From assembly GCA_034440615.1 (NCBI GenBank), contig JAOTOM010004300.1, positions 124,001-188,000 on the forward strand: a stretch of DNA of 64,000 nt, in the 5' to 3' direction. The notes under the pieces are model-generated. The model made no database searches, had not been told where the DNA came from, and worked only from the letters and a program-made list of their open reading frames with translations. Shown here piece after piece: positions 18-56,164 of this stretch. Both the position numbers and the translations under genes were made by a program. This DNA comes from Ashinkailepas kermadecensis. Its lineage: Eukaryota > Arthropoda > Thecostraca > Neolepadidae. Within the stretch, counting starts at the first letter, position 1, and the number at the start of each line of letters is the position of its first letter.

Positions 18-70
18 GGGCGCTAAATGACCTCGTAGTCGGCGCGCCCTTAAGCCCAAATAATCAATCA
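18..70 (+). mobile_element. Hairpin mini-retroposon, copy 1
   Basis: This is a 53-bp unit. A GGGCGC / GCGCCC stem encloses a 20-base loop, followed by TTAAGCCCAAATAATCAATCA-type tail sequence. A perfect 14-bp target duplication, GATTGGCGTCTTGT, flanks it at 4-17 and 71-84. The unit is identical over all 53 bases to the copy at 6525-6577. Confidence 0.88.
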
Positions 71-84
71 GATTGGCGTCTTGT

Positions 85-1849
85 TTTTGTGTGTGCGCAC
101 TTGTGTGTACACCGTTTTGACCTGTGATAGTAAGTAGCGTGTGCTTTCTTCTAGGGTGTGGCCAGCTAAAAATACGTGTATCCCGCCATCAGATACCAGC
201 AGCCACGTGTGTATTACAATATCCCATGCAATCACCACCTCAATGCCCTACCTCAGCTCTCATAGCGACTTACTGACGCTCATCATCTAGCCGTCATCAT
301 ATTTACCAAGTATCATGTATGCTAAGTTGCCAATTTTCTTATCATAGTTGTTCACATTGTGACTGCTCATTTGTACACCTCTTGGGCACATTCTTTGCGG
401 TTGCCCCAGGTCATTTTATTTTGTGGGGAGGAAAATGATGCAATGCTATCATTACAAGCACCAATCTAGAAAAAACTCACCTTTAGTATTGTGTATGCTG
501 CCTCTTTATGTGTGCTATGTATGGAATGTTAGCATTTGCATTACTGGTAATGTACTTAGTTTCAGAGGTTGCTGATATTTTAGTCATATACATGTGACCA
601 AAGCTGGAGTAGTTATGGATGAATAGATATGCTACAATCCAAGGGATAACATTGTTTGGATGGGTGTATTTTTCTTGGGGGCGATGGTGGTCGCGTAGGG
701 GTAGAGTAGTGGACTTACTGGGATTAGTATTCTGTTCATTTGTTCATTGGGGTGATATTGCCATTCAGTCAATGCAAGTTAGCCATTCATCTTGTGAAGG
801 ATGTGGCGGGGGACGGGTAGTGACAGCCGTACGGTAGAGCAGTGAACACATTGCGAGCATGACGTCACTCGGGCTGGGTCGGAGTCGGAGCTGTGAGTCT
901 CCTTGCTGCGTGTCCATCAACAACTCCACAGCAGCGCAGCCGGCTAACTCACTTGCAGGAGCCGCCGATCACTCAGCTGTGCTAGCTGCCGGCCGCACCG
1001 CGTATTTGTGAGTCACAGACGCCAGCGGCCATGGCAGCGCACGCAGTGCGTGGTTGCCATGGCGATGCTGCCGCTGATGTTGGCTATATGTGGCGCTGCG
1101 GTGCTGGCGTGTTATCTACGTAGTTGTCCGAGAGGGCCTCTCACTGCATCTGGACTATGTTGCACCGTTGAGTCGGCGAATGTTTTGTCGAACGCGCTCA
1201 TTTAGCGGCGTCGTGTTTCCAGTCGCCTGAGATGACTCGCAGCACATAGACTAACCGTAACTTGGTGGAGCTTGAATGGTGAGGGTCTTCTCGGTCTGTC
1301 CAGGAGCGGCTGCAATTCGCTCGGGATGTTGGAAGTCCACTGCCGTATAAAGTCCCAAGAGACGTTGCCCATTGTGCAGTAATGATGCCACTAGTCTGAG
1401 TATCCAATGAAGCACTTGTGTTGGCAGTAATGTGTGGCGATGGCGCTCCCGACACCCTGGGCGGCAGCGGCCTGTCGACACATGTGCTGTGTGCCGCTCT
1501 GGCCATCAGTGCCGGCGCGGCACGGCCTATGGACAGGGGGCAGGGCGGGGATTCGAGGGGGTGAAGAGAGCTCGGCGGCCAGACCGGCTCGGAGTGGCAC
1601 TCGTGCCACGCGGTGTCGCCCCAGCCGGCGCCGGCCGCCGGCGCCACTCTCAGCACGACCACGGACAGTCGGTGTGCATGTGTCGATGTCAAAGCCCACG
1701 GCCGTTCGGCGCTGAGTAGGGTGTGGTTGGGCTTGAGTGGCTGGGCGGATGGCGTGTGGGGCGTGTCGGGTCGGGTGGTGGTGCTGTGAGCCGGTGGTGT
1801 CACGCACACTCTCGGCCGGCCTGACCGTCGGCGTTGACCCGCGTTGCAG
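85..1849. other. Upstream or first-intron sequence of LUC7L, no gene recognised
   Basis: No convincing coding exon is visible. The stretch turns G+C-rich from about 840 (840-1050 and 1430-1850). Long open frames at 1198-1809 on the minus strand reflect that composition. The LUC7 N-terminal block (about 20 residues, normally ending RDG) was looked for and not found. Confidence 0.5.
860..867. promoter_or_regulatory. CRE/ATF-type palindrome TGACGTCA
   Basis: A perfect TGACGTCA palindrome sits at the edge of a G+C-rich stretch. Such sites often occur in housekeeping promoters, but no transcription start can be assigned here and the match may be chance. Confidence 0.25.
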
Positions 1850-1941
1850 GGGAGTCGAAGCTCAGCGTCAGGTTCACCGATCCCAAGGTCTGCAAGAGCT
1901 TCCTTCTGGCTTGTTGTCCCAACGAGATCCTGGCGTCCACG
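1850..1941 (+). CDS. LUC7L: LUC7L exon: start of first zinc-finger region
   Basis: The acceptor is TTGCAG at 1844-1849 and the donor GTCAGT at 1942. The first two bases complete a codon from the missing upstream exon. Thirty codons then read ESKLSVRFTDPKVCKSFLLA onward to ILAST, which includes the first cysteines of the zinc finger. The exon ends in phase 0. Confidence 0.92.
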
Positions 1942-2066: not shown

Positions 2067-2106
<40 letters not shown>

Positions 2107-4540
2107 TCAGTACGGGAGTCAGAGAGTGAGTGATGGCTTACTCGTTCACAGGAATCGGGTGATCAAATAGGCTAGTGTCAGTGTAAACTTTGGCTGCGCA
2201 TATGCATAGATGCGGTGCTCTATGTGACAGCTGCTCCCTAAGAGCACCCACGTCTGCGGATGCTGAAAAAGGTGCGGACGTGGATTCGAGCTGCCCACTG
2301 GAAGTAGCGATGCGGGTGCGGTGTTGGTTCTCAAGGGTTTCAGAAAATATTCCCCAATAGGTGCACAATACCGGCAACACCAATGCACACGTGTCTGCTG
2401 CTGATAACCCCTGCGATGGTTATGTCCTATTCCTTTTGAATATGTGCAAGGTAAACGTGTCCAAATCTGGATAACGATATTCTCGTATCAAGCCTGCACA
2501 TTCCGTATCACTCATACTATCTTCTCCGTAGTATGGCTATGGCTTCAATTTGGGATCTCGTTTCGTCACGTCACCTTTACAGCCACGAACTCAGTGTACC
2601 TGAGGGGCCGCGGTAGCTCAGTCGGTAGGCTGTTGGACTCATGACCGTAAGATCGGTGGTTCGAATCTCGCAACCGGCGGGTTTACCGAGTCCACCCATG
2701 ACCAATCGGCATGAGAGCTCGACGACGCTATATGACCTAACAGTTGAATATGTCATAAAAGAACCCAATGTTGAGTTAATCAATGTACCCGATGTAGAGT
2801 TACACAAAGCACAAACAAACTGAGCCTATTTCATTGGCTGGAGAGGGACGACGTTTGTCGATGTTGGTGCGAATTGCGATGGTGTAAAATTTTAACAAAC
2901 ATGTGGCATGTTACAGCGGATGGATCTAGGCCATTGTGCCAAAGTTCACGACCTGGCTCTAAGGGCTGACTACGAGGCTGCCGTCAGGGATAAGGACTAC
3001 TTCTACGACATTGACGTGAGTACATTCACATCGAGAGACCCCGGGCGTTCAGTTTCGCTAGGTCGTTATTCTGCGTGTTGGAGACAAATTTTAATTGTTT
3101 TCGGCATCTTGTGTCTGAGTATTAAGTGGTTGAAAAGGGAAAAGGAACACCATTTATTTTAGGTAAAATATTTACCATCAACACCAAATCAAGATGTCTA
3201 TTAACCCTTGCCGGGACAGGGTGTCTCGAGAGCCCCATCGCGTTTTTTTTTTGGGGGGGGGGGTAAAGCGGCCGTATGAGTAGGCACAAAGACAACACTT
3301 TCAGTATCTTCCTATGCATCTGTTTTACATTTCCCATTCAAATTTAGGCCAAGGTCATTCAGGGTCATTAACCTGGGACAGGTAAAATAGAGTAATGCTT
3401 CAAAATCTTCAAGGTGCCGCCATTCGGGGTAGTTGCATCATGTCAACACTAAACTCGGATCATGCTGTTCTTTCCTCAAAGACGAACAACTCTACTCTCT
3501 TGGAATTTAATTCACGTCAAGGTTGCTGACCTGAGGTCAGGTCAATTTCCGCATTTGTTTTGCTGTATTAAGAATGGAAAATTGGATCTAGGGTTAGTTA
3601 TCATGCCGAAGATGATGCAGAGCATATAATGAGTATTCTGGTTTAAAATGTGTTGAATGTCCATTGCATAAGGTTATATGAAGTGCCATGTATAGACTAC
3701 ACCATGTCATCTTTTATAGAATGTTGCTGTTCCTCGTGAAATCATATCTGAATTCGGTTTCAATGTCGCCTAAGGCGTACGATGTAACATTGGATGGCCA
3801 ACCAAGACCTGAAATGACCTGACCTTGGTTGGAAAAGCGGATTTTTCTGAAATGTTCCTGCATTTTTATCACCAAGAACATTATCCTTCCCAGAAAATTG
3901 TCCTAATTTTTATCATGTGGCGGTTGAATCATGCTGTTTGACAATGACAATGCTCTGTGAAAAGCATTCAATATTCACTGGGAAGTGCAAGCTGAGATTC
4001 TGATGTCACAGGTTTGAATAAAAATATTATCTTTGTATTCGATTACCCTACAATTTTCCTCTTCACGACTAGGACTACAAAGCACGAATCAACCCTACCT
4101 TACCTCGTGTGATCTGACATTATTTGGCATGATTTGACTTATCTTTGGAATGACTTTTCAAGCAGGGCACACTTCGGAGGCCGAATTGATCGTTTCATAA
4201 ATATATATATATTGTTCTAGCGTGACCTAGGGTCAGATCACGAAGTGAGAAGCTGGACAGATTACATGGGCGCCAAATGATCCTGTAGTCGGCGCGCCCT
4301 TAAACCCAAATAATCAATCAATCAATCTGGACAGCTTACAAAATATTTCGGTATCATATCAGTTCTTTTTGGCAACAACATTTGTATATTTCAAAGATCG
4401 TGTGGTATTCAAGGTTGAACTGACTTGACTTAACCATATGGCATAACCTGGCGTGGCCTTAGGATTCTTGGATGCCAATCATACACAAATAGCTTGCTTG
4501 AATGATCCTGTTGGAAGAACCTTAGACAAATGTAAAGTAA

Positions 4541-4572: not shown

Positions 4573-7500
4573 TCATATTTTCCAGGTAATTATCAAAGGT
4601 TAAGCATATCATCGGCTTGGCCTATTATGACCTTTAGCGACCTTAGCATGGCCGAATATGGAGAAAGAAGGTGTGATATGAGCTATATTAACTTGCCTAT
4701 ATGCCTTGGCTATGTTGACTTGCCAATGACCCCCCCCCCCCCCGACGAGGAACCACCTTTCCGTGGGGGGGGGGAATTGCGTGCCCCAATGATCCGGCTC
4801 CCATCTTACCGGTGAGGGGACAGACTAAGAGTGCCTCACTCGTTCTTCAATCCATACGCTCTCATTCCCATGCCCACCTCATATCAACATCCATGTCCTT
4901 CACCTGGCCCTCCACCACCGACTTTCCATGTCGTGAGCAGGTAAGACAACTTCCCCGGTTCTGCCCACCAGCTCAGTTTTATCCGGGTAGTCGCGCCCGC
5001 TCGCCCCCCCCTCCGGGGTTGACGGAGTCCTGGAGGCTGAGTTCCCCCGTCGTACGGTGCTAGTTCTGACGGGGGAGCAACACGCCTCTTTGGTCCCGAT
5101 ATCCCGGAGGGGCGGGCGGGTCCGCAGGGCCCCATACGGGCCAAGCGACTTGTCGCCTCGGGTCGGAGGTCCGGGCCAGAGCCTGCTGGCCTGACCGGCA
5201 GGGGTCAAGAGGTGGGCGTCGCTGGATCCCGGTCGGTGTGGTGAGTCTCTCTCTCTCCCGGCCGGGTGATGACGTCGCCTGCCCCGTATAGCTCCTCGGG
5301 CGCCTGGCGTCCTCCCGTCTGCGGGACTCGGGTGTCCCCCCAGTTGGGCCCCGACGTGGTGGGGCGCCTCGAGGAGCGGAAAAAACACACACTGCATGGC
5401 TTCTCCAACAAACAAAAACACTCCTGGTCCCTCTCATAGAGGCCAGACAAATCTTTACCCACGCGGAGATCGGAACTTCTCCATGGAATGTACTCCCGGC
5501 CCTCGTGTACTGGTTTTCAGAGGAAAGAATAAGTGCCTCGCGTCCCTGTCCCCCTTCCAGAAGAGGGACGGTTGCGACAGATTTGGCGAAATTGTGAGGT
5601 GCCGGAAGCTGAATGACGGAGCTCTGGAAGTAGAATTTGCGGAATGCTTGTCAGGCTGGAAAGGTACTTACGTTGTCAGAGTTTGTGTACTATATGCGGA
5701 AGAACGGCACAAAGGAAAACATAATCATCGAAATCACTGTAGAACCACACAAGACATATATATACATCGCGACATATACATCGCGGGAGGATTATCAATT
5801 GTTTTGACCTGAAGGATGTATCTGAAGATGAAATCGTCGATGGGCTTTCAACTTTCGGAGTTATTGGCGCAAGGAAAATGAAAGCAAAAGAGGGACAGCT
5901 TATTCCGACGAACAATGTTATCCTAATATTTAACAGAACCGACATACCTCCCGAGATAATGGGCGCAAAATGACCAATGCAGTCGACGCGCCCTAAAGCA
6001 CAAATCCACCACCACAAGTGGCTATGTGGGGTCAAGGTGCGAGAATTCCTTCCAAGTCCCATGCGCTGTTACAGGTGTCAGAGATTTTGACACACAACAC
6101 AGTACTGTCATAACCGCCCGGTGTGTAGCAGGTGTGCCTCGCGTGAACACTGCTGAGAAGTGTACCGCTCAGAACCCGTTTTGTGTCAACTGCGGTGAAG
6201 GGCAGGAGCCTCACACCTCGCATGATCGTGCGTGCCCCTTACATCAAGGAAAGGGAGATCATCTCAATAAAGCATACGAGCAAGATAACGTTTAGAGAGG
6301 CCAGGGACCTCTACGAAAAGTCCCACCCCAGAAGATCATACGCTTCAATAACCAAAACTAGTTTTAAAACGCCACAACACGTACAGCCAGACATGGCCTC
6401 CGAACTGATAGTACAACCGACTGCCCGTCTTCGAGCTTTCGGAGTACCTCTGACGTCGCCTACAAGGAAAGGGCGGGAAGCCCAAAAAGACGTCGAAGCG
6501 ACCGAAGTCCTACCCACCACGTATGGGCGCTAAATGACCTCGTAGTCGGCGCGCCCTTAAGCCCAAATAATCAATCAACCCACCACGTATAGATGCCCTG
6601 ACGAGCAACCAGAGATCTCCTCCCGATCAGGACTTGAAGGGGAGGAATGGATTCAGGTTAACCGGTCCAAGAGGCCTGTTCGGTCTTCCCCACCCAAGTC
6701 CATCCTCTCCCCATCTACCACGTTACCTACTTTGAAATCCCCGCCTTAAGTAGACGTCGTTGGTCACAATGTCAGCAGGCTATATGACCTGTGCAGTCGA
6801 TGCGCCCCTAAACCACACACACACAATTTCAGCAGCATCTGCGCCATTGCCGTTTACAGCTGTACAACCAGTAGGACGCCTCGATGATTGAATTACAAAG
6901 ATGCTCAATAAGTTGTTTCTTTCCAGATTTTTCAGAGCTTTTAAATGTTCCTCAGCCTTCAGTTCTCTTTGGTATGCTTCACACCAAATGCAATAATGGT
7001 ATTCCGGCTTTGAAGCAAATTGTGTGCGTCGATTCCTAGCGCATGTGTTAAGGTGATTCAACGAAAAGTCCAATCTCATCGCCTCCCAGAGAAATTGAAA
7101 CCACCCGCGATGCCCATATTCACCGCCGCAAATACTGTTGAGCATTTCGCTGGATTAAAGCGTCAAAGCCAGAAAGCCTGACACCATGTATAATGATGTA
7201 TCTGGAACATTAGGTATAACGGCGGGCTTCTGACGCAGTCGTTAGCATGTCCAAGGGGTTGTGATCAGGCCGCTCACGCTGGTATTTCTATGCCAGTGGA
7301 AAAGAGATTCACTTGGCTTACAGTCCTTCGCTCGCCGTACGTTCATTATTATTTAATGTTTATTGGAAGGGTGGGGTTAAAGAAAAATACAGGAAGCACT
7401 CGTTTGCCAACACTGGTCAGATTTCATGTCGAAGCGCAATTAAACTCAGTCTAATGATGTCATGCCACTGCGACGTGTATAACCAGCACCGAATTGCTGT

Positions 7501-8663: not shown

Positions 8664-11600
8664 GTCTCTGTCTCTGTCTCTGTCTCTGTCTCTGTCTCTG
8701 TCTCTGTCTCTGTCTCTGTCTCTGTCTCTGTCTCTGTCTCTGTCTCTGTCTCTGTCTCTGTCTCTGTCTCTGTCTCTGTCTCTGTCTCTGTCTCTGTCTC
8801 TGTCTCTGTCTCTGTCTCTGTCTCTGTCTCTGTCTCTGTCTCTGTCTCTGTCTCTGTCTCTGTCTCTGTCTCTGTCTCTGTCTCTGTCTCTGTCTCTGTC
8901 TCTGTCTCTGTCTCTGTGGTTGTCGGTTCCAGCTGTCCAAGCGGTGCCTGTGCCTGTGCCACATAGCCACGTATATCCATTGCGATTGTGGCCGAGCCTG
9001 CAGCAGCTGACGGTCCGACTGTCGGCCAGGTGCACGAGCTGGCGGAGCAGATCGGCAAGAAGCTGGCGCGGGCCGAGGAGCTGGGCGCCGACGGCTTGGT
9101 GGAGGAGAGCATGAAACTCATGGAGGAGGTCAGAATGAAAAGCTCAGTGGGCGCGGGTGTGCGACACAAGGGCCGGCTGGCCTGCTCATGTGCTTGTCTA
9201 CGTTTGCTAGCCGGACTTACGGGTTCGTGTAGGAAGGCGCTACTATGGAATGCCCAGTGCTTGTAACTAGATGTACGCACCCATACGATAGCTTTTTGCG
9301 TGCCGTGGTAATGGAAGGGGATGTGAAGTTTAAGCGTTATGCATTATATGGACGGGACGACCGAGATGATTATCCTGATGACTATCCATCAGGGGATACG
9401 GACTGCTGAGACTGGTCCATAGCAGCCACATGTACAATGGGTATAAGTCAGTATCCATGCCCGTGGACGATATTGCCAGGCATTGGTAACAATGACATAC
9501 AAATTATTGATGTGTTAATTCTGGTTTGTTTTCAAGGACTCTTGTCCGATTTATGCAACATATTAATGGTTAAGGGTTTTTAATTTTGCATTCTGTCACG
9601 CTTCTAGTTGACCACCAATGGGCAGTCGATGGTGATCTTCGAATGCACTGCAGTGTGTGCTATTTTTCCGGCATGGATGGACACTGGCTCCACTGTTGAC
9701 TCCCAGCCTGTTCGCACCTGGTTGGATCGTCCATCTTTTAACATCAGACCGTGGGACGTTTACCACTAATTTACGCATCAGATATCACACATGCATTCAT
9801 CATACGTCTGTCACGCGTGGCCAGCTCGGGCCGCACTGGTCGGCCGCAGGCGGGCGGGTGAGGGTATGCAGCTGTAGTGGTACACAGCTGCACAGCCCCA
9901 CCGCACTGGTCGGCTGCAGGCGGGCGGGTGAGGGTATGCAGCTGTAGTGGTACACAGCTGCACAGCCCCACCGCACTGGTCGGCTGCAGGCGGGCGGGTG
10001 AGGGTATGCAGCTGTAGTGGATACACAGCTGCACAGCCCCACCGCACTGGTCGGCTGCAGGCGGGCGGGTGAGGGTATGCAGCTGTAGTGGTACACAGCT
10101 GCACAGCCCCACCGCACTGGTCGGCCGCAGGCGGGCGGGTGAGGGTATGCAGCTGTAGTGGTACACAGCTGCACAGCCCCACCGCACTGGTCGGCCGCAG
10201 GCGGGCGGGTGAGGGTATGCAGCTGTAGTTAGTGGATACACAGCTGCACAGCCCCACCGCACTGGTCGGCTGCAGGCGGGCGGGTGAGGGTATGCAGCTG
10301 TAGTGGATACACAGCTGCACAGTCCCACCGCACTGGTCGGCCGCAGGCGGGCGGGTGAGGGTATGCAGCTGTAGTGGATACACAGCTGCACAGTCCCACC
10401 GCACTGGTCGGCCGCAGGCGGGCGGGTGAGGGTATGCAGCTGTAGTGGATACACAGCTGCACAGCCCCACCGCACTGGTCGGCCACAGGCGGGCGGGTGA
10501 GGGTATGCAGCTGTAGTGGATACACAGCTGCACAGTCCCACCACAGCTGCACAGTCCCACCGCGTCCACGGCCAACGTGCCGCGCTCATCCGACTGTGTG
10601 GCGACAGGTGGAGGACATCCGTAAGCAGAAGGCGATGGCCGAGCAGGAGTACCGCAACTCCATGCCGGCTAGCAGCTACCAGCAGCAGAAACTGCGCGTC
10701 TGCGAGGTGTGCTCCGCCTACCTTGGCATCCACGACAACGACCGGCGGCTGGCGGACCATTTTGGCGGTAAACTGCACCTGGGCTTCATCAAGATCAGAG
10801 AGAACCTGGCGGAGCTCAAGGTGAGCGGTCTGGAAGCTGCGTGCGCGCTATGGCTAGGAGATGGCCGTATAGATATAGATAGGCCGCCGCAATAGATAGA
10901 GGGAAATAGGATGCATTCGCTGTCTACAATGGGGCGAAATCTGGGAAAAAAATCCCCATGCTGGTACGTTTTTATTTGGGAAGTTATCGGAGCCTTTTTG
11001 GTGTGGAATGATCTGAGATAATATCTTCTCTTCGGGGATCAGTGGGGCATAGGAAATTCTTACCTCGTCGACGGTGATAAGTGGAGATGAGAGAAAGGGA
11101 CATTAAAAGTGGACATCAAATCTCAACATAAGAGAAAGCCTCAACATAAGAGAAGAGGTGGCAGGGGAAGCCGTTGAACCATGTGTGGGACTTTGAGCAT
11201 AACATTGTCAAGCTGAGCTGGATATTTTTCAGGCAACCTCCAGCTGGATAAAGGATGAGATGGAAGGATGTGAAGACGAAAGCAGTGTGATATATGGTGC
11301 GTTTCACGACAGATCGACCAAGGGGTTGGTTGGTTGGTTATTGGTTTTTACGACACGTCGACCGTTGAGTCATATAGCGTCGCCAATCTCTCACGCCGAT
11401 TGGTCGCGGGCGAAGAGCAGCGACAGGTGAGACTCGAACCCACAATCTTTCGATTGTGAGACGAGCATCTTACCCCTAGACCACTCGTCCCCAGATCGAC
11501 CAAGGGGACGAGTGGTCTAGGGGTAAGATGCTCGTCTCACAATCGATAGGTTGTGGGTTCGAGTCTCACCTGTCGCTACTCTTCGCCCGCGACCAATCGG

Positions 11601-14600
11601 CGTGAGAGATTGGCGACGATACATGACTCAACGGTCGACGTGTCGTAAAACCAATAACCAACCAACAGATCGACCAATGCACTTCACCCCATAATTTTTT
11701 ATTAAGACCAAAATTTGCTCGCAGGGTTGTCTTTGGCTCTGAACACGGCTGTGCAAACTTCAGCCCGATTCGGCCAAAGGTTTTTAGCTATAGCCTCCGG
11801 CATTATTTTTAGGTGAAATATCATGGGTCGGTTTGACGATGGATATCTCATGAATATGAAGAGGAAATGGTGGCAAATTATACATATTTCAGAAGAAAAA
11901 TGATCAACTGAAACATTCCCGAAATATAATATCAGTATTTCCTACATTTGACCTCGTGACATCGAGACCTCTCGTGACCCCTAGCCCATCGAAATTGACA
12001 AATTTAACGGCTGAAATCAAAATGGGCATGATTTCACTGACCAAAAAGAAATGTGTTCGTCTTATAAATATCCGTTATGGCCGTCCGCTCTTCATGACTT
12101 TTTGTGATTTTGCGTTTTTCGGGCAGGACGGATTTCGTGTAGGCTCTTTTCCATTGGAAAGCTACATGGAGTAGAACAATGACGTATGACATATGATTGG
12201 ATAGGACATATGATTGGACGACATATGATTGGAAAACGTTTTCTAAGAAAAAACATTCTACCTTTTTAACCCTCCCCGTCTTTCCGGTCATATCCTCACA
12301 CCCCGTCTCGGTGGGGGTGATACACCCCCTCCCCCTCTAATCTCCAAACTAAACGTCGCACGAAAACGAAAGAGGTGTCATCGGAAAGCGCACAACGAGT
12401 AGGGCCAGACGCCACCCCCAAAATCTTATCCCCAAAAGTGACGTTACTAGGGGGACTAGATTTGCACGACTTACATCGTGTTTTTGGCTTTGGGGAGTTT
12501 ATCGTTGGAGATATTTGAGGAAAAAATATTTGGAATCAGAAAAGGAAGGCGAAGTCGACCAATTTTTCGACCGAAATCGACCGAAATTTGTTCCCCACCC
12601 AAATTGTTTTTTTCCCGAAAATTTTGCGTTTTCATTTTTCTTTAATTATTATTTTGATAATGGGTCATACGTACATCGACCCATTTACATGCAGTTGTCT
12701 CGTCGACTGACCTTCGTGCATATGCCATTGTTTGATTGACGATGATATGGGCGCTGCATGATCGACGCAGTCGGTTGGTTATTGGGTTTTACGACACCTC
12801 GACCGTTGAGTCATGTAGCGTCGCCAATCTCTCACGCCGATTGGCCGCGGGAGAAGAGTAGCGACAGGTGAGACTCGAACCCAGATGTGCCCATAAACTC
12901 CAATAACCAACCTATCGGCAATCGGTGACCTTGAACTTTGTGAAGTTTATGAGGGCGAACTTGCATTAATATGTTTGAAGTATTTTTAACCATGGAATAC
13001 GCGGACCTACGGGAACATTTTTAAACTTCCTGTGTGATCGTACCTTTCGTGTCCGTGTCGGAAACCATGTGTCTCCACGTTTTGTGCAGGAGAACGGTGT
13101 CCCACAGGGGAGCGTACTTGGCGTTGCGTTGTTTGCAATTTTGATCAATGACATTGAAAACGGCCTCTCACCAAGTATAGGTAGGTCACTCTTCGTTGAT
13201 GACTTGGCTATTTGGTCCTGTGCGACGCGATTACCATCCATGGCAAGACAGCTACAGATGGCCATAGCCTGTCTTGAAAAATGGACGATCGTGAACGGTG
13301 TCCGATTTTCTACCTCAAAGACCGTCCACTTCTGCCGACGACCACTGTCTGGAGATGGTAGTTCGGTTATATGGACAGCAGATACCTGTGCGTCCGTCGG
13401 CCCGCTTTCTCGGCGTCATTTTCGACAACCGGCTATCATACAGCGACCATGTCAATACTCTGCGAGATAAGTGCTTGCGTGCAATGAATATAATGAAGTG
13501 TGTCTCACGAACTGACTACGGAGCTGATAGAGCAACTCTTTTAATGTTCTATCGATCTCTTATCCGCTCGAAGCTCGATTACGCGTCATTCATATATGAC
13601 GGTGCAAGTGGCTCAGTGAAGCGGAAACTTGACACAGTGCACCACACAGCACTGCGGATCGCCATAGGGGCATTTCGGACGTCGCCAGCTGCGAGTATTT
13701 TAGCAGAGGCCCATGAGCCATCGTTGGCAAGCAGACGCGAGAAGCTGGGCCTCCGGTATGCAATACAGCTAAGGCAGCTTCCAGAACATCCCACTTACAA
13801 ATCCGTTTTTCTCACCATTTGTTGTCGATTATCCACGGGCAAAGAGGTCAAAGACTGAGACCATTTTGCGTCAGAATCCGCTCACCACTTCATGAGGCTG
13901 AAATCCCACTGAGAGGTGTGGCGACGATGAAATACATGCAAACTCCACCATGGGAACTCGCCTTACCCGAAATTGATTTATCCCTCGCTACTGCCCAGAA
14001 AGGACATACTGTCCCAGAGCTCTTCAGAGCAGAAGCACTGGAGCTACTATAATTTTATCGCTGCTACTCTCGAACGTACACTGACGGATCCAAGACAGCC
14101 CATGGAACTGGTTGCGCATTTGTATGTCGGACAGCAACAAGATTTTTTACTTTACCACCACACGCGTCTGTGTACACTTCGGAGTTGGTTGCAATTATCA
14201 AAGCACTATGTTTGATTGAGGTTGGAGATGAAACCCTACATCTTATTTTAACAGACTAGTTGAGTAGCCTTCGGGCCCATCAGTCTTTTCAACCATCAAA
14301 CCATTTCGCTCAAGAAATCCTGGCACGACTGACAGCATTGGGTAGAGCGGGTAAGAGGATTATCCTCTGCTGTATACCGAGCCATACCGGCATCACGAGA
14401 AATGAGCTGGCTGACGCTGCTGCCAAGCGTGCCGCGCAGTCACATAGGATTCGAGATCTGCCCCTCCCAGCCAGAGATTACTACGCAAATGTAAATGCTT
14501 GCCTCCAAGGAAAGTGGCAATAAAGCTGGAATTCCCAAATTTTAAACAAACTCCGGACCATCAAACCAGTTCTGGCACCGTGTACATCATCGCTAAGAAA

Positions 14601-16539
14601 ATGTAGGAGAGAAGAGGTGATTCTGGCACGCTTGAGAATAGGGCACGTATGCAACGCACGGTTACCTTTTGAGAAGGGAGGCGAAGCCACGCTGTTCCCG
14701 ATGTGGCTCACCGATGACGGTTCGACATATACTGTTTTCATGCCCCAACTTCACGGTAGAACGAAGACGTCACTTCGGTTCCAATTGCCACGAATGATCG
14801 TACTGTGACGTTTTAGGTGACAATTCGGAGATCATCCAGACAGGACAAATATACCGATATATATCGACCGCTCAGTTCGACGTAAACTATCTCTTCCGAA
14901 AATAGACTCCTGCCGCCTAGTGTAATGTGAGAGAAGAAAAACCAGTTATGGTCGCTACGTAACCAGTAGCAGTTGATGCGGCCCTAAGCCCAAACAATCA
15001 ATCATTTTGTTAAGCAAACGTTTTTGTATCACCCTTCTTCATCTCATTGTTCAATCCCCCATAGTTTTTTTTTCAGTGGGAGACAACTTACTCGAAATCC
15101 GTCCGTTCAGAAAATCGGAAAATAATAGAAACCATGGAGAACGGATGCGTATATGCGATATTTAGAAGCAAACACTTTTCTTATTTTTTTCATAAGGCAG
15201 ACAAATCATGCCCGTTTGCATTTCTGCCATCAAATTTATCAATTTGAATGGGCTAGAAGTCACAGAAGGTCACGAGGTCAAACGTGAGAAATGTTGATAT
15301 TTTATCACGGATGTGTTTCTTTCATCATTTTCTTCTCAAAGATGCATAATATGTCACACGTCCTCCTCATTATCGATGAATTATCTATCTCCAAAAATAC
15401 CCTTGTTGTGTGACCTCTAAATACTGCCATAGGCTATAACTCCGAAACCGTTGGTCGGATCGAGCTAAAGCTTCTTCAGGCGTGCTCAGAGCACAAGACT
15501 ACCTTGTACACCAATTTTGGTTCAAATACAAATTTAGTGGGTGTAAAATTTGAATTTTTGTCGATCTGTCGTGGAACGCACCATATGCATTTGAGTGTGG
15601 TGAGGGCTCCGAGCTAAGTGTGAACGGACTAATTGAGATGCTATTATGACACCGACTGGACTCTTATGTTCGTACACTGACCGGTCTGTTGTGGCCGCAC
15701 ACTGACCGGTCTGTTGTGGCCGCACACTGACCGGCATGTCTGACTGTTGCAGAAGTCTGTGGAGGAGCGGCGTGAGCAGCGCCGCAAGGTGCGCGAGGCC
15801 GAGATGAACGAGCGGCGGCGCGGAGGCTCCCGGGAACGCGAGCGGAGCCGATCGCGTGAGCGGCGGCGGCGCAGTCGGAGCCGGGATCGCGGCGGCGAGC
15901 GGAGCCGCGGCCGCAGGTCTCGCAGTCGCAGTCGTGACCGCCAGCGCAGGTCAGTGCCCTGCTCATGGGAAGTCGGTGCTCTGCTGGGGTGGGTCTCCTC
16001 TGATGGGCAGGGAAGGCGGACGGCAATGGTGTACGCAAATGATCAAAGACTGGTCGAAGCTCTCTAAAACCCAAATAACAAACAGCGGACGGCGATGAGA
16101 CTGGAATAGTCGTTTTTTGTTGTGTCCATACATACTGTTAGGAAGTGGAAATTTAAGTTCGCGTGCACAATGCACGAATGTATGTATTAAGAGCAAGAGG
16201 GTTGGGAGAGGTGCATGATAGTTCATAGAATCCAGTGATTGATCCACTGACAACGGCACGTCTCAGTCGCGACGTCCACTGACGCGCCGACCGGCACTGC
16301 AGGCACAGAGACCGGTCCGGAGATCGGCGGCGGGATCGGTCACGTGATCGGCGCCGACACGAGCGGCGCGACAGCCGGGACCGTGACCGCGACCGCGACT
16401 CGCGCGAGCGGCGACCCGACGACGACAGGTGAGTGGGCAGCTATGATCGGCCGGCCAGGCGCGTTGTCCGGCGTGGTGTACCGCCGCTGCACCCCGCACC
16501 CGTGCGTGGGTGGACATGGCTGTTCTGGTGACTGATTCT

Positions 16540-43680: not shown

Positions 43681-44915
43681 CCTCCAATGTTCTGTTGGGA
43701 TTGCCCGATTTCCTCAAGTGGGCATGCGAGAGGGAGGTGTGCCGGTATGCGGCAACTCACAGGCTGCCACATGCAACAGCACGGCAGCACCTACGCCGCA
43801 CCACCACCACTGACACTCACACAGCCACAACTGCACCTCCCCACACCGCACCTACCGCCGGGCGAAGCTACGCAGGGACGCTCTCCACACCTAAGCCCAC
43901 ACCCCCTCCAACACCAGCTCCCATCCGCCCTACCATCCCACCAGCAGCCGGCTCCCGGAGCCCGGCACACCCTCCTCAACGTTCCGCCGACCCTCGCTTC
44001 AACCGCCCCACCGATCCCCGACTTCCCCGGCCCACCGCCCCTCTACCTCACCGATCACCACTCCTTCCCACGCCACCCCACCCCGGACCTGGCCTCCCAC
44101 ATCCACTCCACTTCAGACCTGGCCCTTATCCACATCCCCTTCACCCTCGACGACCCGGCCTCCTCCTCCTCCCACACCCTTTCCACCGCGGGCCCGGCTT
44201 CCCACGTCCACCCCACCGAGGACTGGGCCTCCTTCCCTTCCCACCCAATCTCAGACCCGGCCCATGCCCACCACCATCCCACCTCAGGCACGGCCTCCCA
44301 TATCCACCCCGCATGATCCCTCCTCCAACACTCATCAGATCCAGACCCGGTCTCCATCCCATCCCCCACCGGTACCTACCCATCCCCCACGGGACCTGGC
44401 CGTACCCATTCGCGTCACCGCCACCAACCGGCCAGGGCCCACCTCGCCACCCTGAAGCCTTCCCTCCACTGCCTCCTCCAGGGCTTCGGCCCCTACCACA
44501 CTCATCCGGCCGGCCAAAACCAAGGCCTAGAACCAAGGCCACCACAATATCCACCCAGACCACCCGCAAGTCCACGGCCACCATCTCCTGCCAAACCGAA
44601 CCCCCACCACCTCCTGCACACCCACCCAAACCCACTCCAAAACCTCATCTGAGGCCAGCACTCAGACTGAACCTACCACTCTTGCCAAGCCCGTCGAACC
44701 CACAACTCCAGACCAACGAACCCCGCCCGAACACACCGCGCCTCCCAAGCGCAAATCCCGCCGCCACTCCGCCCAATCACCTCCCTGGATCCATGCGACC
44801 AGGTCCAGGCTACCACCCCTGCCTGGATCACCTCCCAACCCTCTCTCCGTTCACCGGTTCAACCTTTCTGCCCAACTCGACACCGACACCACCCCGGAAC
44901 ACCAACAGCCACTAA
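43602..44915 (+). CDS. Proline/histidine-rich open frame, possible LINE ORF1
   Basis: A 437-residue open frame starts within the 44-bp repeat, so the true start is unclear (DFLKWACEREVCRYAATHRL at about 43710 may be nearer). It is dominated by Pro, His, Arg and Thr. From about 44040 to 44480 it is made of degenerate 11-13-residue units of the type GPGLPHPLHFRP. No zinc knuckle is visible. It stands about 15 bases before the endonuclease motif of the LINE ORF2 remnant on the same strand, which is where ORF1 of that element should be. The frame may also stay open through composition alone. Confidence 0.45.
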   Translation: MEPSTTSDELSAATGWSLPPLVTNSRPSNVLLGLPDFLKWACEREVCRYAATHRLPHATARQHLRRTTTTDTHTATTAPPHTAPTAGRSYAGTLSTPKPTPPPTPAPIRPTIPPAAGSRSPAHPPQRSADPRFNRPTDPRLPRPTAPLPHRSPLLPTPPHPGPGLPHPLHFRPGPYPHPLHPRRPGLLLLPHPFHRGPGFPRPPHRGLGLLPFPPNLRPGPCPPPSHLRHGLPYPPRMIPPPTLIRSRPGLHPIPHRYLPIPHGTWPYPFASPPPTGQGPPRHPEAFPPLPPPGLRPLPHSSGRPKPRPRTKATTISTQTTRKSTATISCQTEPPPPPAHPPKPTPKPHLRPALRLNLPLLPSPSNPQLQTNEPRPNTPRLPSANPAATPPNHLPGSMRPGPGYHPCLDHLPTLSPFTGSTFLPNSTPTPPRNTNSH

Positions 44916-44929
44916 ACGCGTTCGGCAAT

Positions 44930-47900
44930 GGGACTTTTTCTGCAGTGGAACACCGATGGCCTTCCAGCCTCCAGGCAAGTTCATATAATTCAAATTTTAA
45001 TTCTTGCAACAGAAACCATTACTAGCTGCGCTCCAAGAAACTCACTTTCGAGATTCTGACTCCACTTGGAACAAAATCCCAGGTTACACATGGCACGTCG
45101 ACAACGTAAACGGCCCACATAGGAAATGGGGCGCAGCCATACTCATAGCAACTAGCATACCCCATCGTCGAGTAACGTTAAATACTCCCCTGAATTGCGT
45201 AGCAGTCAGCCTCAAAATTGCCCATTGCCAAACCACAGTCACCCACTACAACCCGACCTTAGGAGGATCGGACAGTTGCATTGAATTTACGTGCTGCTCC
45301 CAACGACTTAGCTCACTATTTGACTGGTCAGCTTCAGACGTTCCCGGGCTGAGCGACCACTACCCAATCACAATTAGGCTCAGCACGGACGCTGTCCACC
45401 ACATTAAGCTAGTTAGACCATCTTGGAACTTGAAAAGAGCGGACTGGGCTAAATTCGAGGATCAGGTGGACCTCAACCTAGCAACTTCAGAGACCAGTAA
45501 ATTGGAGACAATCCTAAGGGCCTAAGTGCTCAGCAGCACGAGACTCAGTCCCAAAAAGTATCAAAGCTAGGAAAAAGGCATCTACGCCATGGTGGACACC
45601 AGACTGTCAAAGGGCAATCGCAGCACGGCGCCGTGCCCGCAAACAATTCAAAAGATGCGTGTGCAAAGCACACCTATCAGCATACAGACAATCTCAAAAA
45701 CACTGCCGGTACACAATTCGAACAGCACGCCAAAACTGTTGGCAGTCCTTTGCCTCTCAAGTCAATAGGTTCACCCCTACCGGCAGAATTTAGGACCTGA
45801 TGAAGCGCTTCAACCTGAAACGCTCACCACCAGGCCCCTTCCCCCAGCTGACGGTGAGAGATAACTGATCCACCAGTCGTAGACCACTTTAAACTACACG
45901 ACGCCAGCGTATCTGGCAACAGCAACTACGACACCACTATAGTAAGCGCTCTAGACGCCCTTGCCTTCAAAGCAAATTTTAGCTCTAGCAATAAAGAAAT
46001 CTACAATCAGTCGTTTAGTATGCACGAATTACACTTTGCCCTCAGCAAGTGTGGAAACACGTCGGATGGGCCGGACGACATCCATTACCAGTTTCTGAAA
46101 CGTCTTAGCAAAGATTCCCTAACGTACCTACTAGCGGCCATAAATGAACTGTACCAAAGCGACACCTTTCCCGAATCCTGGCGGGAGAGCGTAGTCATTC
46201 CATTGCCAAAGCCGCACAAGGAGCACTCCACCCCAAAAGGTTATAGACCCATCTCACTTACTAGCTGTGCTAGCACCAGTGGTCTAGGGGTAAGATGCTC
46301 GTCTCACAATCGAAAGGTTGTGGGTTCGAGTCTCACCTGTCGCTACTCTTCGCCCGCGACCAATCGGCGTGAGAGATTGGCGACGCTACGTGACTCAACG
46401 GTCGACGTGTCGTAAAGCCAATAACCAACCAAGCAAGTTGGTCGAGCGCATGGTCAACACACAATTGGAGAAATTTCTGGAACACAACGACCTGCTCGAC
46501 GAATTTCAGTGCGGCTTCCAGCGTCAAAAATGAACTACAGACCATCTCATTGGATTAGTGCATGACATCAAAAGTGGTCTACGCATCAAACGCACAACAA
46601 TAGCTGCCTACTTAGACCTCACTGCCGCATTCGACCGAGTACACAAGTCCGCACTGACACACAAACTCAACAAGATAGGCCTACGCGGACACATGGCACA
46701 CTTCATTCTCAACTTCCTCAGAGACAGGACCCTTAAGGTCCGATGCGGCAGTGTCACATCAAACACCACAACTCAGGAGCAGGGCCTGGCGCAGGGGAGC
46801 GTGCTCTCACAGAGCCTCTTCATCATCATGATCAACGACATACTTGCTGACCACATGGACACTTCACTTCAATACTCTCTTTTCGCGGACGACATAGCCA
46901 TTTGGACAACATCACAATGCTTCCTTAAAGCTGAAAAAAGGCATTCAAGCAGGACTACACCACATTGCAAAGTGGTGCAAAACCTGGGGCTTCACCATGT
47001 CTGCAGAAAAATCGGCCACCGTCACATATAGTCGTCTCCGCCCCACACCCAAAACTCTACTTAAAATCGATGGCAAAGCCATCGAACAGGTGAAAAGCTT
47101 CAAGTTCTTAGGATTGCATTTAGACGAAAAACCCAATTTCAACACCCACACCATGTCCATCTCAAAGCGATGCGCGAAGCGCGTCAATATACTTCGTGCA
47201 CTTGCAGGCACAGACTGCGGCGGAGACAGGAAAACACTACTACGACTCTACACATCAATCATACGACCCATCCTAGAATACAACAGCATCATTTTTGCAA
47301 CCATTTCAGAAAGTCAGAGCCGAAAGTTAGAAATCATCCAAAACAGCTGCATTAGAGCAGCCACAGGTGCCCTCAGCACCACACCGATAGCCAGTCTTCC
47401 AGTGGACTCGAACACGCCCCCACTCCACTTCAGGAAGACACAACAGCTGTGCCTCTACCACATCAAAATCAAATCCATTAAGTATCATCCGGCACAGCGC
47501 TGCTTTACGCCTGACAGATACGACAAGAACCGATTTCGGCGCAAACATCCAGAGCCTGTGATGGCTCTCTCAGATCTTAACTTCGCAATGTCATCCACTG
47601 CAGCTCGACCGCCCACTAGGCCATTCTGGACTTTCAGTCAACCAAAGGTCGAGTACTTGCTCTCGGAGAAGAAATCCACTATCACATTGGCGGAAATTCT
47701 TGGCATCTTCCACAAATTCGCTGATGACAACAATCGCAAATCACTCGTACTCACGGATGGGTCGAAACACGAGGCTAGGGTAGGCATTGGCATCACTGGA
47801 CCATGTCTCAGACTTTCCAAGCGTCTACCGGATAACTTCTCCATCTACTCCGCTGAAGCAATGGCCATTCTTACCGCTATCTCCATTCTCATGAGGCGTA

Positions 47901-48588
47901 AAGGTAGAAACGTAGTAATTTGCTCAGACTCCAAATCCGTCCTCCAGTCAATTAGCAACACCCACGACTGTCCACATCACGTCATTGATAGAATCCAACA
48001 AATCGTGGCCCATAACGCAAACACGAACTTTTCCTTCCTCTGGATTCCGGGCCACGCCAACATCCCAGGTAACGAAGAAGCAGATCGGCTCGCAAAGCAA
48101 GCCTTAGCACTGAACACTTACCCTAGCGTGGAATATTCGGTAGACGATTGCAAAGCACTCCTACAACGCCACATTCGCCAACATCCACGGAACACATGGA
48201 CACAACACAACTCAACACAACACAAATCCAACCACACCCACGCAACAAACCAACGATAGGCACACGGAACACATCAAATCAATCTCACCGACAAAAAGAG
48301 GTCATCCTCAATAGACTTAGAACTGGTTGCACAAAACTAACACAGCCTCAATTAGAGGGTGACCAATACACAGCACCTCACTGCGACACCTACAACACCA
48401 CGTTAAGCATATGCCACATCCTGCTAGACTGCAGTAGCTTTAGCTCTCAAAGACAACCACTAAAGGCATTCTGCCAAAGAGTAGGTATCACCCTATCGCT
48501 TCCATCGCTTCTCGGTGACAAACACCGAGAACTCCTTCAATTGCTATTTGAATATCTGTATGCCACAAAACTAGTAGGAGTACTGTAG
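44930..48588 (+). pseudogene. LINE ORF2: endonuclease, reverse transcriptase, RNase H, broken
   Basis: The endonuclease begins FLQWNTDGLPASRQ. After a frameshift it has AALQETHFRDSD and ends GLSDHYPI. The middle part with the GDFN motif is missing. A linker with STPWWTPDCQRAIAARRRAR follows (about 45590). The reverse transcriptase runs from about 46020 (SDGPDDIHYQFLKRL, GYRPISLTSC), is interrupted by a SINE at 46276-46431 and a TGA at 46530, and shows AAYLDLTAAFDRVHK, GLAQGSVLS and FADDIAIW (about 46880). A further frameshift precedes SFKFLGLHLDEK. RNase H has LTDGSKHEA (about 47755), YSAEAMAI, ICSDSKSV and IPGHANIPGNEEADRLAKQA, so all four acidic residues remain. A CHILLDC motif ends the protein. 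The order suggests the I-like group. It differs clearly from the remnant at 12955. Confidence 0.88.
46276..46431 (+). mobile_element. tRNA-derived SINE, family A, inside the LINE reverse transcriptase
   Basis: It lacks only the first few head bases and starts CCAGTGGTCTAGGGGTAAG. AGCA at 46272-46275 and 46432-46435 is a short duplication. Removing it restores SLTSCASKLVERM, so it inserted after the LINE. Confidence 0.92.
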
Positions 48589-52040: not shown

Positions 52041-52101
52041 TTGGTTGGTTGGTTATTTGGGTTTACGGCCGCATTGACTGCGTTGGTCATACAGCGCCCA
52101 T
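52041..52101 (-). mobile_element. Hairpin mini-retroposon, copy 11
   Basis: On the minus strand: ATGGGCGCTGTATGACCAAC, then GCAGTCAATGCGGCCG and a CCCAAATAACCAACCAACC tail. Its 5' flank (TACAACTTTTCTTGTTCCCA) is the reverse of the flank of copy 10, so both descend from one insertion. The 3' flank differs. Confidence 0.85.
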
Positions 52102-54767
52102 ACAACTTTTCTTGTTCCCACCTTAAAGCACAATAATACCCAAAAGTTTCCGAAAAAATTTACAACCATGTTCACAAAAAAATATTATTTTTATTCAAAA
52201 TCAGCTTAGGTTAGGTTAGGCTCGGTTAGGTTTCTTTTTTAAGGTTGAGAATTTTCAGAAAATAAATTAAGTGACATTTTAATTTAGTTTAATTTTTTGT
52301 TCTCAAAAGATAGGTCAGGGGGCTTTTGTTGCATTAAAAAAAAACATTTATGTTTATGCTATGTTACCGAACTCAAAGCCCTTTTGGCATTATTTTGCTC
52401 ACAACCTGAAAAGTAAGCACAGAAAATAAGTGGGTCCAATCATCTTAGTCACCTTCATAAACATGGTATTCTGCATATTTTTTTTTGTTTTAAAGGAAGA
52501 AAAGAACACCTTAGACCGCAAGGTTACCAAATAATTTGCAATTTTTGGGGGAAACTTTTTTGGAATTTTTTTAAAAAAGTTTTCCAACTTGAAAAACCTA
52601 AACTAACCTAACTTAACCAAACCTAACCCATTTGCTTGCTATATGGAGGCAAATGTGTGTACAAACTTGTCTTGTTACCACCTTAAAGCACAATAATACC
52701 GATTTGGCTAGGTTAGGCTAGTTTAGTTGTTTACCTTGGAAAAATTGTTCAATCATTTTAAAAAATAAAATAAAATCGGAAATTTTCCTTCAAAAGCAGC
52801 TGACATTAGGTTCGGGTAAGTTGGGTTCGGTTGTTCAATTTATAAAATTTTCAGAATATATATTGCTTAATATTTGTTTCTATTTTTTTCTCCAAAGCAG
52901 GGGTGTCGATTTGTATCGATAGACACTAGCGCGTATTAAATGTCACAAATCGTGATGGGCGTTCCTCAGAACATCCAAAATCGTAACATCCAAAGAAAAA
53001 ATTCCAGTTACAGAAATTCCAGCGCCTAAAGTCTAAATTTGAGGTTACAGTGACAAATGTGACGGAGGTAAGACATTTGTGGTGCAATTGCGCGCAGTGT
53101 TTAATCCGGAGGCCAATCTCATGTGACGTCGTACTGATTCGTTTTTTGTACTTCGCACATTCTGATGTATCTGCGGATTGGTGTGATTTTAAATAGTGAA
53201 TTTTTAAATAGCTTGCTGATATTTAATTCCCAAAGGAACAGTAGTTGAAGAAGTTGGCAGGTAAGCTTGAAAAAGTCCAGTCCATGCTTTTTTCTGATTT
53301 GTGCTCAGGGTTTCCATGTTAATATCACATAACTACCACGTTTGTCTTCAAGAAAAGCTGTTTTTAGTTTACTTTTATTAATATTTTCATTCCACTGCTC
53401 TTAGTGCCCTTTCTGCCCAGGATTGGGGCACCTAGTGTTGCATTTCCGTCCAGGGGTTGGCACACCTTTTGGTAAATTTACAGCTTAAGGTAATTTCTGA
53501 TTAATTTTTTTTCCATGCAATGTTTAGGAATGTGATGAACATGATGTTACTGCTCATTTTGGTAAATTTGTGTTTTAAGGTGTTTTATGAATTCGTGGAA
53601 TGTATCATTTCAATGCAATGTTTATGAATGTGACTCAGATGATGGGACCACTCATTTTCTATACAAATGCCTACATTTCAGGCTGTGAGCAAAATAACAC
53701 CAACAAAAAGCTTTGAATTGGGTGACATAGGGTAAAGTTTTTTTTTAAAATAAAAAATGCAACATAACCTAACCTAACCTAGCTTAACCTCCCCTTGGAG
53801 AAAAACAAAACCAAAACATCAAGTTGTAAAAATTTCAAGCAATGTATTTTTTTACAATTAAAAAATGTAACCCAACTTAACTTAATCTAACATAAGCTGC
53901 TTTTAAAGAAAAAAGATGTATTTCTTTCAAATTTTGGAACAATTTTTGCAAAAAATGTCGAACTTAAACACTTAAACTAATCTAACATCACCAAACATAG
54001 CCCATTTGTTTGCTTTATGGAGGCAAATGTGTAATAACTTGCCTAGTTACCACCTTAAAGCACAATAATTCTGGTTAGATTAGGTTGGGTTAGGTTTTTT
54101 CATTTGCAAAATTTCAAGAAAATAAATTGCTATATATTTTTCCAATCTTGTTTTTGTAGTTGTTTTCTCCAAGGTCAGGTTAGGCTAGGTTACGTTAGGT
54201 TATGTTGAATTTGTAATGTATTTCTTTTAATTGCTATGTTACTAACTCCAAGCCCATTTTTAATGTTATTTTGCTCACAACCTGCTCACAACCACAAGCA
54301 TTTGCACAGAAACTGAGTAGTGCCATCAGCTTAGTGACATTCATAAACATTGCATTGGAAATTTAAATAAAAAAATATTAATAAAACACATAAAAGCACA
54401 AATTTAATGTCCTTTCTTCTGCAAATGCATGCCTTTCAATTGGGAGTAAAAAATAACACCAAAAAAAGGGTGTGGAGTAAGGAAATATAGCATGCAAATA
54501 ATGTTCAAGATGTATGATAACCTTACCTAACATAGTTCAACTTCCCATACAAGAAATTAATTGTTTTTAATTTACATTTTCGAGGCATTTTCTCAAATAT
54601 TTTCAACTTAAAAAACCTAACCTAAGCTAGCCTGAACCGTTTATTATTTTTTTTTGTAGAAAAATAATTAACAAAAATTATTTACCAACAAATGATTCTT
54701 TTTATAACTTACAACAAAAGCCTAACCTAACCTGACAAACCTAACCCCTTTGTATGCTTCATGGAGG

Positions 54768-54929
54768 TTGGTTGGTTATTGGTTTTACGACACGTCGACC
54801 GTTGAGTCATGTAGCGTCGCCAATCTCTCACGCCGATTGGTCGCGGGCGAAGAGTAGCGACAGGTGAGACTCGAACCCACAACCTTTCGATTGTGAGACG
54901 AGCATCTTACCCCTAGACCACTCGTCCCC
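54768..54929 (-). mobile_element. tRNA-derived SINE, family A, full length
   Basis: A complete 162-bp copy on the minus strand with a perfect 11-bp duplication CTTCATGGAGG (54757-54767, 54930-54940). Confidence 0.95.
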
Positions 54930-56117
54930 CTTCATGGAGGTAAAATGTGTGTAAAACTTGTCTTGTGGTTACCTTAAACTGTGATAATACCTGGCTTTTT
55001 GGGTAATTTTTCAGCTCATGGTACTCTCTGACTTCTTTGATTTTTTTTTTTAATGCAGTGTTTGTTAATGTGCTGAACATGATGTAACCGCTCATTTCCT
55101 CTGCAGATGCACACTTTTCAATTGTGAGGAAAAATAACATGGAAAAGGGGGCTTGGATTTGAGTAATATAGGATGAAAAATAATGTTCAGATAAAAAAAC
55201 ATGTAACATAACCTAACCTAACCTAGCCTAGACTTCCATGCAAGAAATGATTATTTTTATGCCCAATTCCCCCCCCCCAAAAAAAAAAATTTGTTCTCAA
55301 ACATTTTCAACTTAAAAAGTCTAACATAACCTAATCTAGCTTGAACCGTTTTTGAAGACTTTTTTATTTACTAACTTACAACAAAAGCCTAGCCTAACGC
55401 AACTAGGCAAAACCTAGCTCCTTTGAATGATTCGTGGAGGTAAAATGGGTGTAAAACCTGTCTTGTGGTTACCTTAGACTGCAATAATATCTCTTTTTGT
55501 GCTACCTGGTGCACGTGATGAACCTCCATCTGCATGCTGCATGAGAGCATTGCACTTATTGCTTCACAAAGAACAATAACATGTTGAAAGTACTATATTT
55601 TCAGGAATGGAATCCTGTGCTGATAACATTTTCTGAGTTATAAATTTGCAGATCAGATCTACATCATTTGTGTTAATAAATATGAGAAATTCATAGAAAT
55701 GCATACACCGGTTTGTGGACAAGAAGTTATTCTGATGATTTCTGATGTATTGGAAAATGACAAATTTTCATGATGGAAGCAGGCAAAGTTAAAGTACTTA
55801 TATCTCAATAAGTGGTCAGTTCACTAACAAGACAGCAAATTCACTCAAATAGCACTCAAAATGCCAGGCGGCCCACTCTTTTTGCAAGTTTAAAATCGAT
55901 GACAGTGCTTTCTTGAATCATGTTTAAAGCACATGAAGGAAATGTATTGCTGACACTTGTTAGGAACTGATGTGTGTAACGTTAATTAACATTTCTAATG
56001 TCCTGATGTTTGTACACAAAATATAGCTCACTATTCTAAATAGCATGGGAAGTATGATGCCATATATCATGGCTAATTTATGGTCAAACTGTTATGCAGC
56101 AGATTCCCTGCATTGTT

Positions 56118-56164
56118 ACTTAGTTATTTGGGCTTTAGGGCACAGACCATGTTGATCACATAGC
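56118..56164 (-). mobile_element. Hairpin mini-retroposon, copy 12
   Basis: On the minus strand: GAGCTATGTGATCAACATGG, then TCTGTGCCCTAAAGCCCAAA and TAACTAAGTAA. A perfect 13-bp duplication TCCCTGCATTGTT lies at 56105-56117 and 56165-56177. Confidence 0.88.

Follow-up and report, generated by a model that had tools for sequence, protein, structure and literature searches.

Hairpin-only insertions of about 50 bp in the genome of Ashinkailepas kermadecensis and their relation to the 3' ends of LINE families

Hairpin copies in the window and in the genome

The window analysed here is a stretch of 64,000 nucleotides from the thecostracan Ashinkailepas kermadecensis (assembly GCA_034440615.1, contig JAOTOM010004300.1, positions 124,001 to 188,000 of the forward strand), in which a first-pass annotation had described at least twelve insertions of a unit of about 50 bp, made of one hairpin and a tail, and had taken the unit for a discrete retroposon. 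The motif is present in the sequence at all twelve places named, and the window also contains a remnant of a long interspersed nuclear element (LINE) and several short interspersed nuclear elements (SINEs) derived from transfer RNA (tRNA) (Table 1). A profile built from ten of the window copies recovers eleven of the twelve at 33.8–56.8 bits; the copy at 12747 is found as two halves of 15.9 and 12.7 bits, and is weak and split because a minus-strand tRNA-SINE sits inside it. As had been claimed, copies 18 and 6525 do not differ at any of 53 bp. Target duplications were scored by an ungapped search against a shuffled-pair null with a cut-off score of at least 9, which 1.8% and 1.0% of the null pairs reached in two runs; eight of the twelve copies (18, 4267, 6525, 6779, 16025, 18479, 27364 and 56118) reach it, where at least seven duplications had been reported, while for 5960, 12747, 18730 and 52041 this search gave no duplication with a score of 9. 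Two points of the earlier description need correcting: the left flanks at 27364 and 52041 match, so these two are probably a single insertion within a larger repeat, and the window has one more hairpin, at 14949, which forms the 3' end of a LINE.

Table 1. Hairpin copies and related features of the window
Feature	Position	Strand	Remarks
Solo hairpin copy, LINE-L011 type	18–70	+	14-bp duplications 4–17 and 71–84; 5' end 0
Solo hairpin copy	4267–4326	+	14-bp duplication with 1 mismatch; 5' end −1
Hairpin copy, LINE-L006 type	5960–6013	+	Duplication looked for, not found
Solo hairpin copy, same sequence as 18–70	6525–6577	+	13-bp duplications 6512–6524 and 6578–6590
Solo copy starting at +4 (four stem bases absent), LINE-L016 type	6779–6821	+	Duplication CACAATGTCAGCAG/CACAATTTCAGCAG
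tRNA-derived SINE with related 3' hairpin	11328–11492	−	Comparison
tRNA-derived SINE with related 3' hairpin	11503–11666	+	Comparison
5' half of hairpin copy split by minus-strand tRNA-SINE	12747–12773	+	Profile match
3' half of split 12747 copy	12884–12912	+	Profile match
LINE remnant with own terminal hairpin 14949–15004	12979–15004	+	RVT_1 5.5e-11; duplication not found
Solo hairpin copy, diverged	16025–16085	+	Duplication GCGGACGGCAATG/GCGGACGGCGATG
Solo hairpin copy with LINE-type leader TTAT, 5' end −4	18479–18535	+	Perfect 14-bp duplication
Diverged hairpin copy	18727–18780	+	Degenerate duplication only, score 7
Solo hairpin copy, 5' end −4	27364–27427	+	Perfect 11-bp duplication; left flank as at 52041
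tRNA-derived SINE within another LINE	46275–46432	+	See LINE 44531–48588
Hairpin copy, repeat related to 27364 site	52041–52103	−	Duplication not found
tRNA-derived SINE with related 3' hairpin	54767–54933	−	Comparison
Solo hairpin copy, 5' end 0 to +4	56113–56168	−	13-bp duplication overlaps stem start
SINE copy 5'-truncated near SINE position 55, not at hairpin	58016–58146	+	13-bp duplication

The wider sample of 264 kb consists of the window and 20 stretches of 10 kb picked by contig number, blind to their content (names such as L018:6905 denote stretches elsewhere in the same genome, with the position). A second profile, built from 41 sequences, has a best score of 5.2 bits on reversed sample sequence. 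The sample contains 33 hairpin-type matches; they represent 32 copies, 19 of which have a duplication scoring at least 9. The 20 stretches outside the window (200 kb) hold 19 hairpin-type copies, LINE-attached ones included, which for a genome of 908 Mb extrapolates to about 86,000 (52,000–135,000; this range assumes independence, yet six of the 19 share one stretch). Genome-wide, the perfect stem GGGCGCN{15,30}GCGCCC occurs at 17,881 places (698 for the reversed control), one 33-base hairpin class at 4,153 (control 0) and the 26-base 3' part of the L011 family at 738 (control 0). Where the ends can be judged, most copies stand alone.

The typical LINE form of the hairpin is 5'-UUAU-GGGCGC...GCGCCC-(Y)UAA-3', with a 6-bp outer stem and an inner helix that contains a bulge. 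RNAalifold keeps nine pairs, three of them with changes on both sides. The tRNA-SINEs end in a hairpin of the form CGACGC...GTGTCG with compensating changes relative to the LINE form, both sides of the stem differing at 1–37 (GC/CG) and 3–35 (GC/AU), and also at 12–28; a conserved terminal stem-loop common to LINE and SINE, which is the mark of a stringent-type tail, is present. Paired cells amount to 86.6%, against 84.0% in shuffles and 32–44% when the partners are slid, and the covariation score lies above all 500 shuffles and all slides. In the two LINE-type RNAs that were folded, UUA at −4 to −2 (counted from the first G of the stem as 0, with negative positions upstream) is predicted to pair with the UAA 3' of the stem, so that −4 would be the base of the hairpin; it is among the commonest 5' ends (7/32). 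The predicted folding energy is −12.7 kcal/mol for the SINE hairpin and −14.8 and −16.2 kcal/mol for the LINE type.

LINE families that end in the hairpin

The 3' end of several related LINE families consists of the hairpin, then CCCAAATAA, then a 4-base repeat. Coding remnants stand upstream of the hairpin in L010 and at window 14949, and in L011, L012 and L016, and for the L010, L011, L012 and L016 types this 3' end is common to LINEs that code for reverse transcriptase (RT). Pfam reports RT in window 12979–13467 and RNase H in L012; the remaining coding remnants were matched by tblastn similarity. The window remnant is 84% identical to L010 over about 1,490 bp and resembles RNase H-bearing relatives, and L006 is 83% identical to L012. 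Among the relatives listed for the LINE protein (at least 120), the named ones that come nearest belong to two barnacles, Amphibalanus amphitrite and Pollicipes pollicipes, at 51% identity. The leader at the stem base of 13 LINE-attached copies is TTAT in eight, with A at −2 and T at −1 in all 13; of 288 exact hairpins belonging to the L011 family, 50 are preceded by the LINE's adjoining nine bases AATAGTTAT, the match covering these nine bases. Four sample copies continue into LINE sequence (window 14949, L016:9704, L018:6905 and L018:4361), and nine more were assigned neither to the solo nor to the attached class.

For 17 of the 37 solo or unassigned copies there is a match of 91–100% among five LINE-type 3' ends. 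These are 18 and 6525 (0.98) and 4267 (0.91) with L011, 5960 with L006 (0.91), 6779 with L016 (0.93), L034:1826 with L046/L037 (0.96), and eleven further copies with L045/L049/L050 (0.91–1.0). Because LINE remnants run into the hairpin and the solo copies match different families, the 50-bp unit is very probably the 3'-terminal hairpin of several LINE families, and its origin would be recurrent in several lineages. What had been proposed as a discrete element is a sharp class of about 50 bp with duplications and a fixed 5' end, as the first-pass annotation held, but its standing as a family of its own is not supported.

These matches also bear on the idea of a true micro-SINE, a single lineage of an RNA of about 55 nt with its own source loci, amplified without LINE RNA. 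The high copy number, identical copies such as 18 and 6525, and the fixed 5' end would suit such an element, as would the 20 copies of the 37 for which no close LINE-type 3' end is among those fetched; but the other 17 match several LINE-type ends separately at 0.91 or more, Rfam at its gathering threshold reports only four tRNA heads, all in SINEs, and no tRNA or other small-RNA head in the hairpin units, which are hairpin and tail only, with no RNA polymerase III promoter and no space for an internal one. We consider a micro-SINE unlikely. An inverted repeat flanked by duplications also recalls a DNA transposon of the MITE type (miniature inverted-repeat transposable element), with the hairpin as its terminal inverted repeat. 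Here the duplication length is not fixed (10–17 among copies scoring at least 9, one over-extended match aside), the tail of CCCAAATAA and 4-base repeat is one-sided, and the same sequence is found at LINE 3' ends, so that a MITE has almost nothing to recommend it.

The 5' ends and their possible origin

Of the 19 sample 5' ends supported by a duplication, 18 lie at −4 to +5; the one miss, L019:176, is best placed at −11 and has an alternative reading near +4. Scores of 10 at −181 (18730) and of 12 at −212 (L018:6905) proved to be tail-to-tail matches of the 4-base repeats and were left uncounted. The same starting base that had been attributed to most copies is in reality a cluster from −4 to +5 around the first G of the stem. 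Among 32 chosen solo copies (the sample supplied 18, the first loci 6 and the 29-base set described below 8; copies without a duplication were dropped, and the scores of L008 and L009 are no higher than 7 and 8), seven begin at −4, one at −3, eight at −2, seven at −1 (including L033, which was read by eye where the program gave +4), two at 0, six at +1 to +5 and one at +9. The bases that solo copies keep outside the stem are largely templated, since they mostly agree with the LINE leader TTAT. A second cluster lies inside the stem at +4/+5 (window 6779 and 56168 on the minus strand, L018:7177, L034:9348 on the minus strand, and L044:183); its copies start GCTATATG or CTGCATG, and a clean stop at the hairpin base does not explain them.

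A second set was drawn from one young subfamily by means of a 29-base 3' sequence, which puts no constraint on the 5' end and occurs in 176 copies (control 0); from 100 of these every seventh was taken, and 15 were fetched. Eight of the 15 begin at −4 to +9 (L043 after the search window was narrowed, with a score of 10). Three to six of them have a LINE-type leader: L045, L049 and L050 have 170–180 leader bases in common (82–86% identical), L046 has at least 38, and the 38 that it has in common with L037 are 95% identical. The start of L046, and L038, were not placed in any 5'-end class.

Ordinary 5' truncation of LINE copies, with the 53-bp class as the short end of an even distribution, is very improbable on these figures. 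LINE-attached and intermediate copies exist and speak for it, but 18 of 19 ends fall in a 10-base bin of 58 scanned positions (p = 1.8e-14 for 18 of 18, the ambiguous L019 left out), and in the second set eight ends fall in a 14-base bin against two in one of 196 bases (p = 1.6e-8). The first-pass annotation had argued against random truncation of a long LINE and had named evenly spread 5' ends as evidence to the contrary; what is found is a peak at the stem with few intermediates (−17 and −49).

The duplications and the tail point to target-primed reverse transcription. We think it somewhat likelier than otherwise, judging from the sequences, that the 50-bp units are hairpin-only LINE insertions in which the template was trimmed and then inserted. 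The LINE RNA would be degraded from its 5' end until the exonuclease reached the hairpin, which the LINE protein would hold closed against it; the remnant of hairpin and tail, an RNA of about 55–80 nt, would serve as template, and the LINE protein would insert it, by target-primed reverse transcription, into a staggered target of the ordinary kind. That the trimmed template is also the cause of the sharp 5' end has a little less than an even chance; trimming is preferred as its cause because the SINE shows such an end rarely if ever and intermediates are few. More tentative still is the idea that the terminal hairpin persists as a stable RNA of about 55–80 nt, cut or trimmed at the base of the stem and held by the LINE protein, and may itself be retrotransposed more often than the LINE in several LINE lineages. 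In an R2 system with engineered templates, 5'-truncated insertions were more numerous where the template was unstable, according to the accessible text of that work (PMC11331408).

A close rival is abortive target-primed reverse transcription, in which the enzyme copies the tail and hairpin of an intact LINE RNA and drops off 0–4 nt later, unwinding of the hairpin having cost it its only specific contact. It predicts the observed 5' ends equally well; the one to four extra bases that mostly agree with TTAT mean that the template extended to that point or beyond, a polymerase stop accounts better than an exonuclease stop for the ends inside the stem, and LINE truncation is usually put down to incomplete reverse transcription (PMC2881922, in its available part). 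The SINE, on the other hand, rarely if ever stops at its related hairpin: all ten SINE-type hairpins in the sample have a SINE body and none is solo, against 18 solo copies among the 22 resolved sample copies of LINE type (ten others being left out of this fraction), and one bodiless case, L009, is known. Eleven SINE rows reach a duplication score of at least 9; ten of them start at SINE positions 2–6 and one at 55. In the genome the exact SINE hairpin with ten leader bases (19 more upstream bases) occurs at 5,034 places and a 30-base SINE 3' part at 8,828, the two sets not being nested; given a divergence of a few per cent, these counts would fit nearly all SINE hairpins keeping their body. 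Random drop-off should, moreover, leave many copies of 60–400 bp, where the sample offers only the ambiguous L019 (−11) among 19, and the 29-base set only two of 15, plus perhaps L046. We regard abortive copying as a serious possibility, if on balance a doubtful one.

Several observations weigh against the trimmed template, or against the LINE origin on which it builds. Trimming is read from sequence, and abortive copying predicts the same ends. Six of the 32 chosen ends lie within the stem (+1 to +5) and one at +9, positions not expected of an exonuclease that stops cleanly, and the second set contains the intermediates L041 (−17, score 8) and L037 (−49, score 12). The SINE is no clean control, for its hairpin folds more weakly and another LINE may serve it. 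Outside the sample, L009:2240–2292 is a SINE-type hairpin and tail without a SINE body, for which no duplication was found; it may be a solo SINE hairpin, or else a copy that is old and eroded. In L045/L049/L050 and in L037/L046 the upstream sequence showed no coding. The existence of the L009 hairpin and the lack of coding sequence seen in L045/L049/L050 lower the odds of trimming slightly. The 20 solo or unassigned copies noted above reach only 0.74–0.89 to the fetched LINE-type hairpins. As to the stem, covarying pairs and pair types are no more numerous than in shuffles, 215 and 341 of the 500 coming up to the respective counts. With the partners slid by −3, changes on both sides are more frequent (7 pairs, 16 cells) than in the structure itself (4 pairs, 13 cells), although that slide pairs far fewer cells (31.8 versus 86.6%).

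Related systems and local arrangements

The closest parallel is with LINE/SINE pairs of the stringent type, such as eel UnaL2 and zebrafish ZfL2 (PMC4176376, as far as its accessible text goes), which have a terminal hairpin and a short-repeat tail like the LINEs and the tRNA-SINE described here. Because LINEs and tRNA-SINE have hairpin and tail in common, by analogy the LINE protein likely recognises the hairpin. Unlike the pairs in that account, the bare hairpin, with neither body nor head, is here inserted in very large numbers. Ordinary 5'-truncated LINE copies likewise have target duplications, an intact 3' end and no 5' part, and truncated members of 100–1,000 bp are on record (PMC3747384, from the portion available); the present units are about 53 bp, end sharply at the hairpin base and carry several LINE-type 3' ends. 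They resemble tRNA-derived SINEs, including those of this genome, in the related 3' hairpin, the duplications and the 4-base repeat tail, and differ in lacking an RNA polymerase III head and in having several origins. R2 offers the tie between template instability and 5' truncation, but it is site-specific and the templates were engineered; a natural hairpin-only class was not found described in the accessible text (PMC11331408). Nor did we find a description of hairpin-only LINE insertions in the literature searched, most subscription journals lying outside that search.

The hairpin units are real, abundant and sharply defined, and they are very probably a LINE-made form of truncation rather than a separate family of elements. 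The pattern suggests a specific failure or trimming step in LINE copying. Why LINE copies mostly lack their 5' part is a long-standing question; here insertions extrapolated to tens of thousands stop at one structural landmark, as the SINE with its related hairpin for the most part does not, so that template decay and polymerase drop-off become separable hypotheses. If the hairpin RNA does persist and is itself retrotransposed, the units would be the smallest class of retroposons, and they would record in one genome how the RNA of several LINE lineages decays. At 50 bp they likely fall under the usual size limit of repeat annotation, and for the barnacle Pollicipes the authors state, in the available text, that a comprehensive repeat library is lacking (PMC8917513).

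A second, different LINE lies at window 44531–48588 (Pfam RT and RNase H) and has a tRNA-SINE inside it; the hairpin profile has no match between 46432 and 51000. The SINEs at window 11328–11666 stand head to head with about ten bases between them. Hairpin copies are strongly clustered in places: L018 has four solo hairpins in about 2.2 kb (5022–7220), one of them in an old LINE remnant that has its own terminal hairpin, at 6905. In L002/L003, L007 and L014/L015 a large repeat contains two solo hairpins, spaced by 1,025–1,058 bp and each flanked by a separate duplication. We rejected such a pair as a unit, as each member is a separate solo insertion in an amplified repeat; since the solos ride in one larger amplified repeat, these small-contig loci are not independent copies. 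Within 327 bases (L047, 1–327) hairpin insertions follow one another and a tail with target sequence is duplicated, which may reflect reinsertion at the same site or local duplication. Finally, L038 (146–240) has a hairpin and then, at a spacing of 34 bp, another 3' half-hairpin with a tail, which looks like a jump of the enzyme back to the same template.

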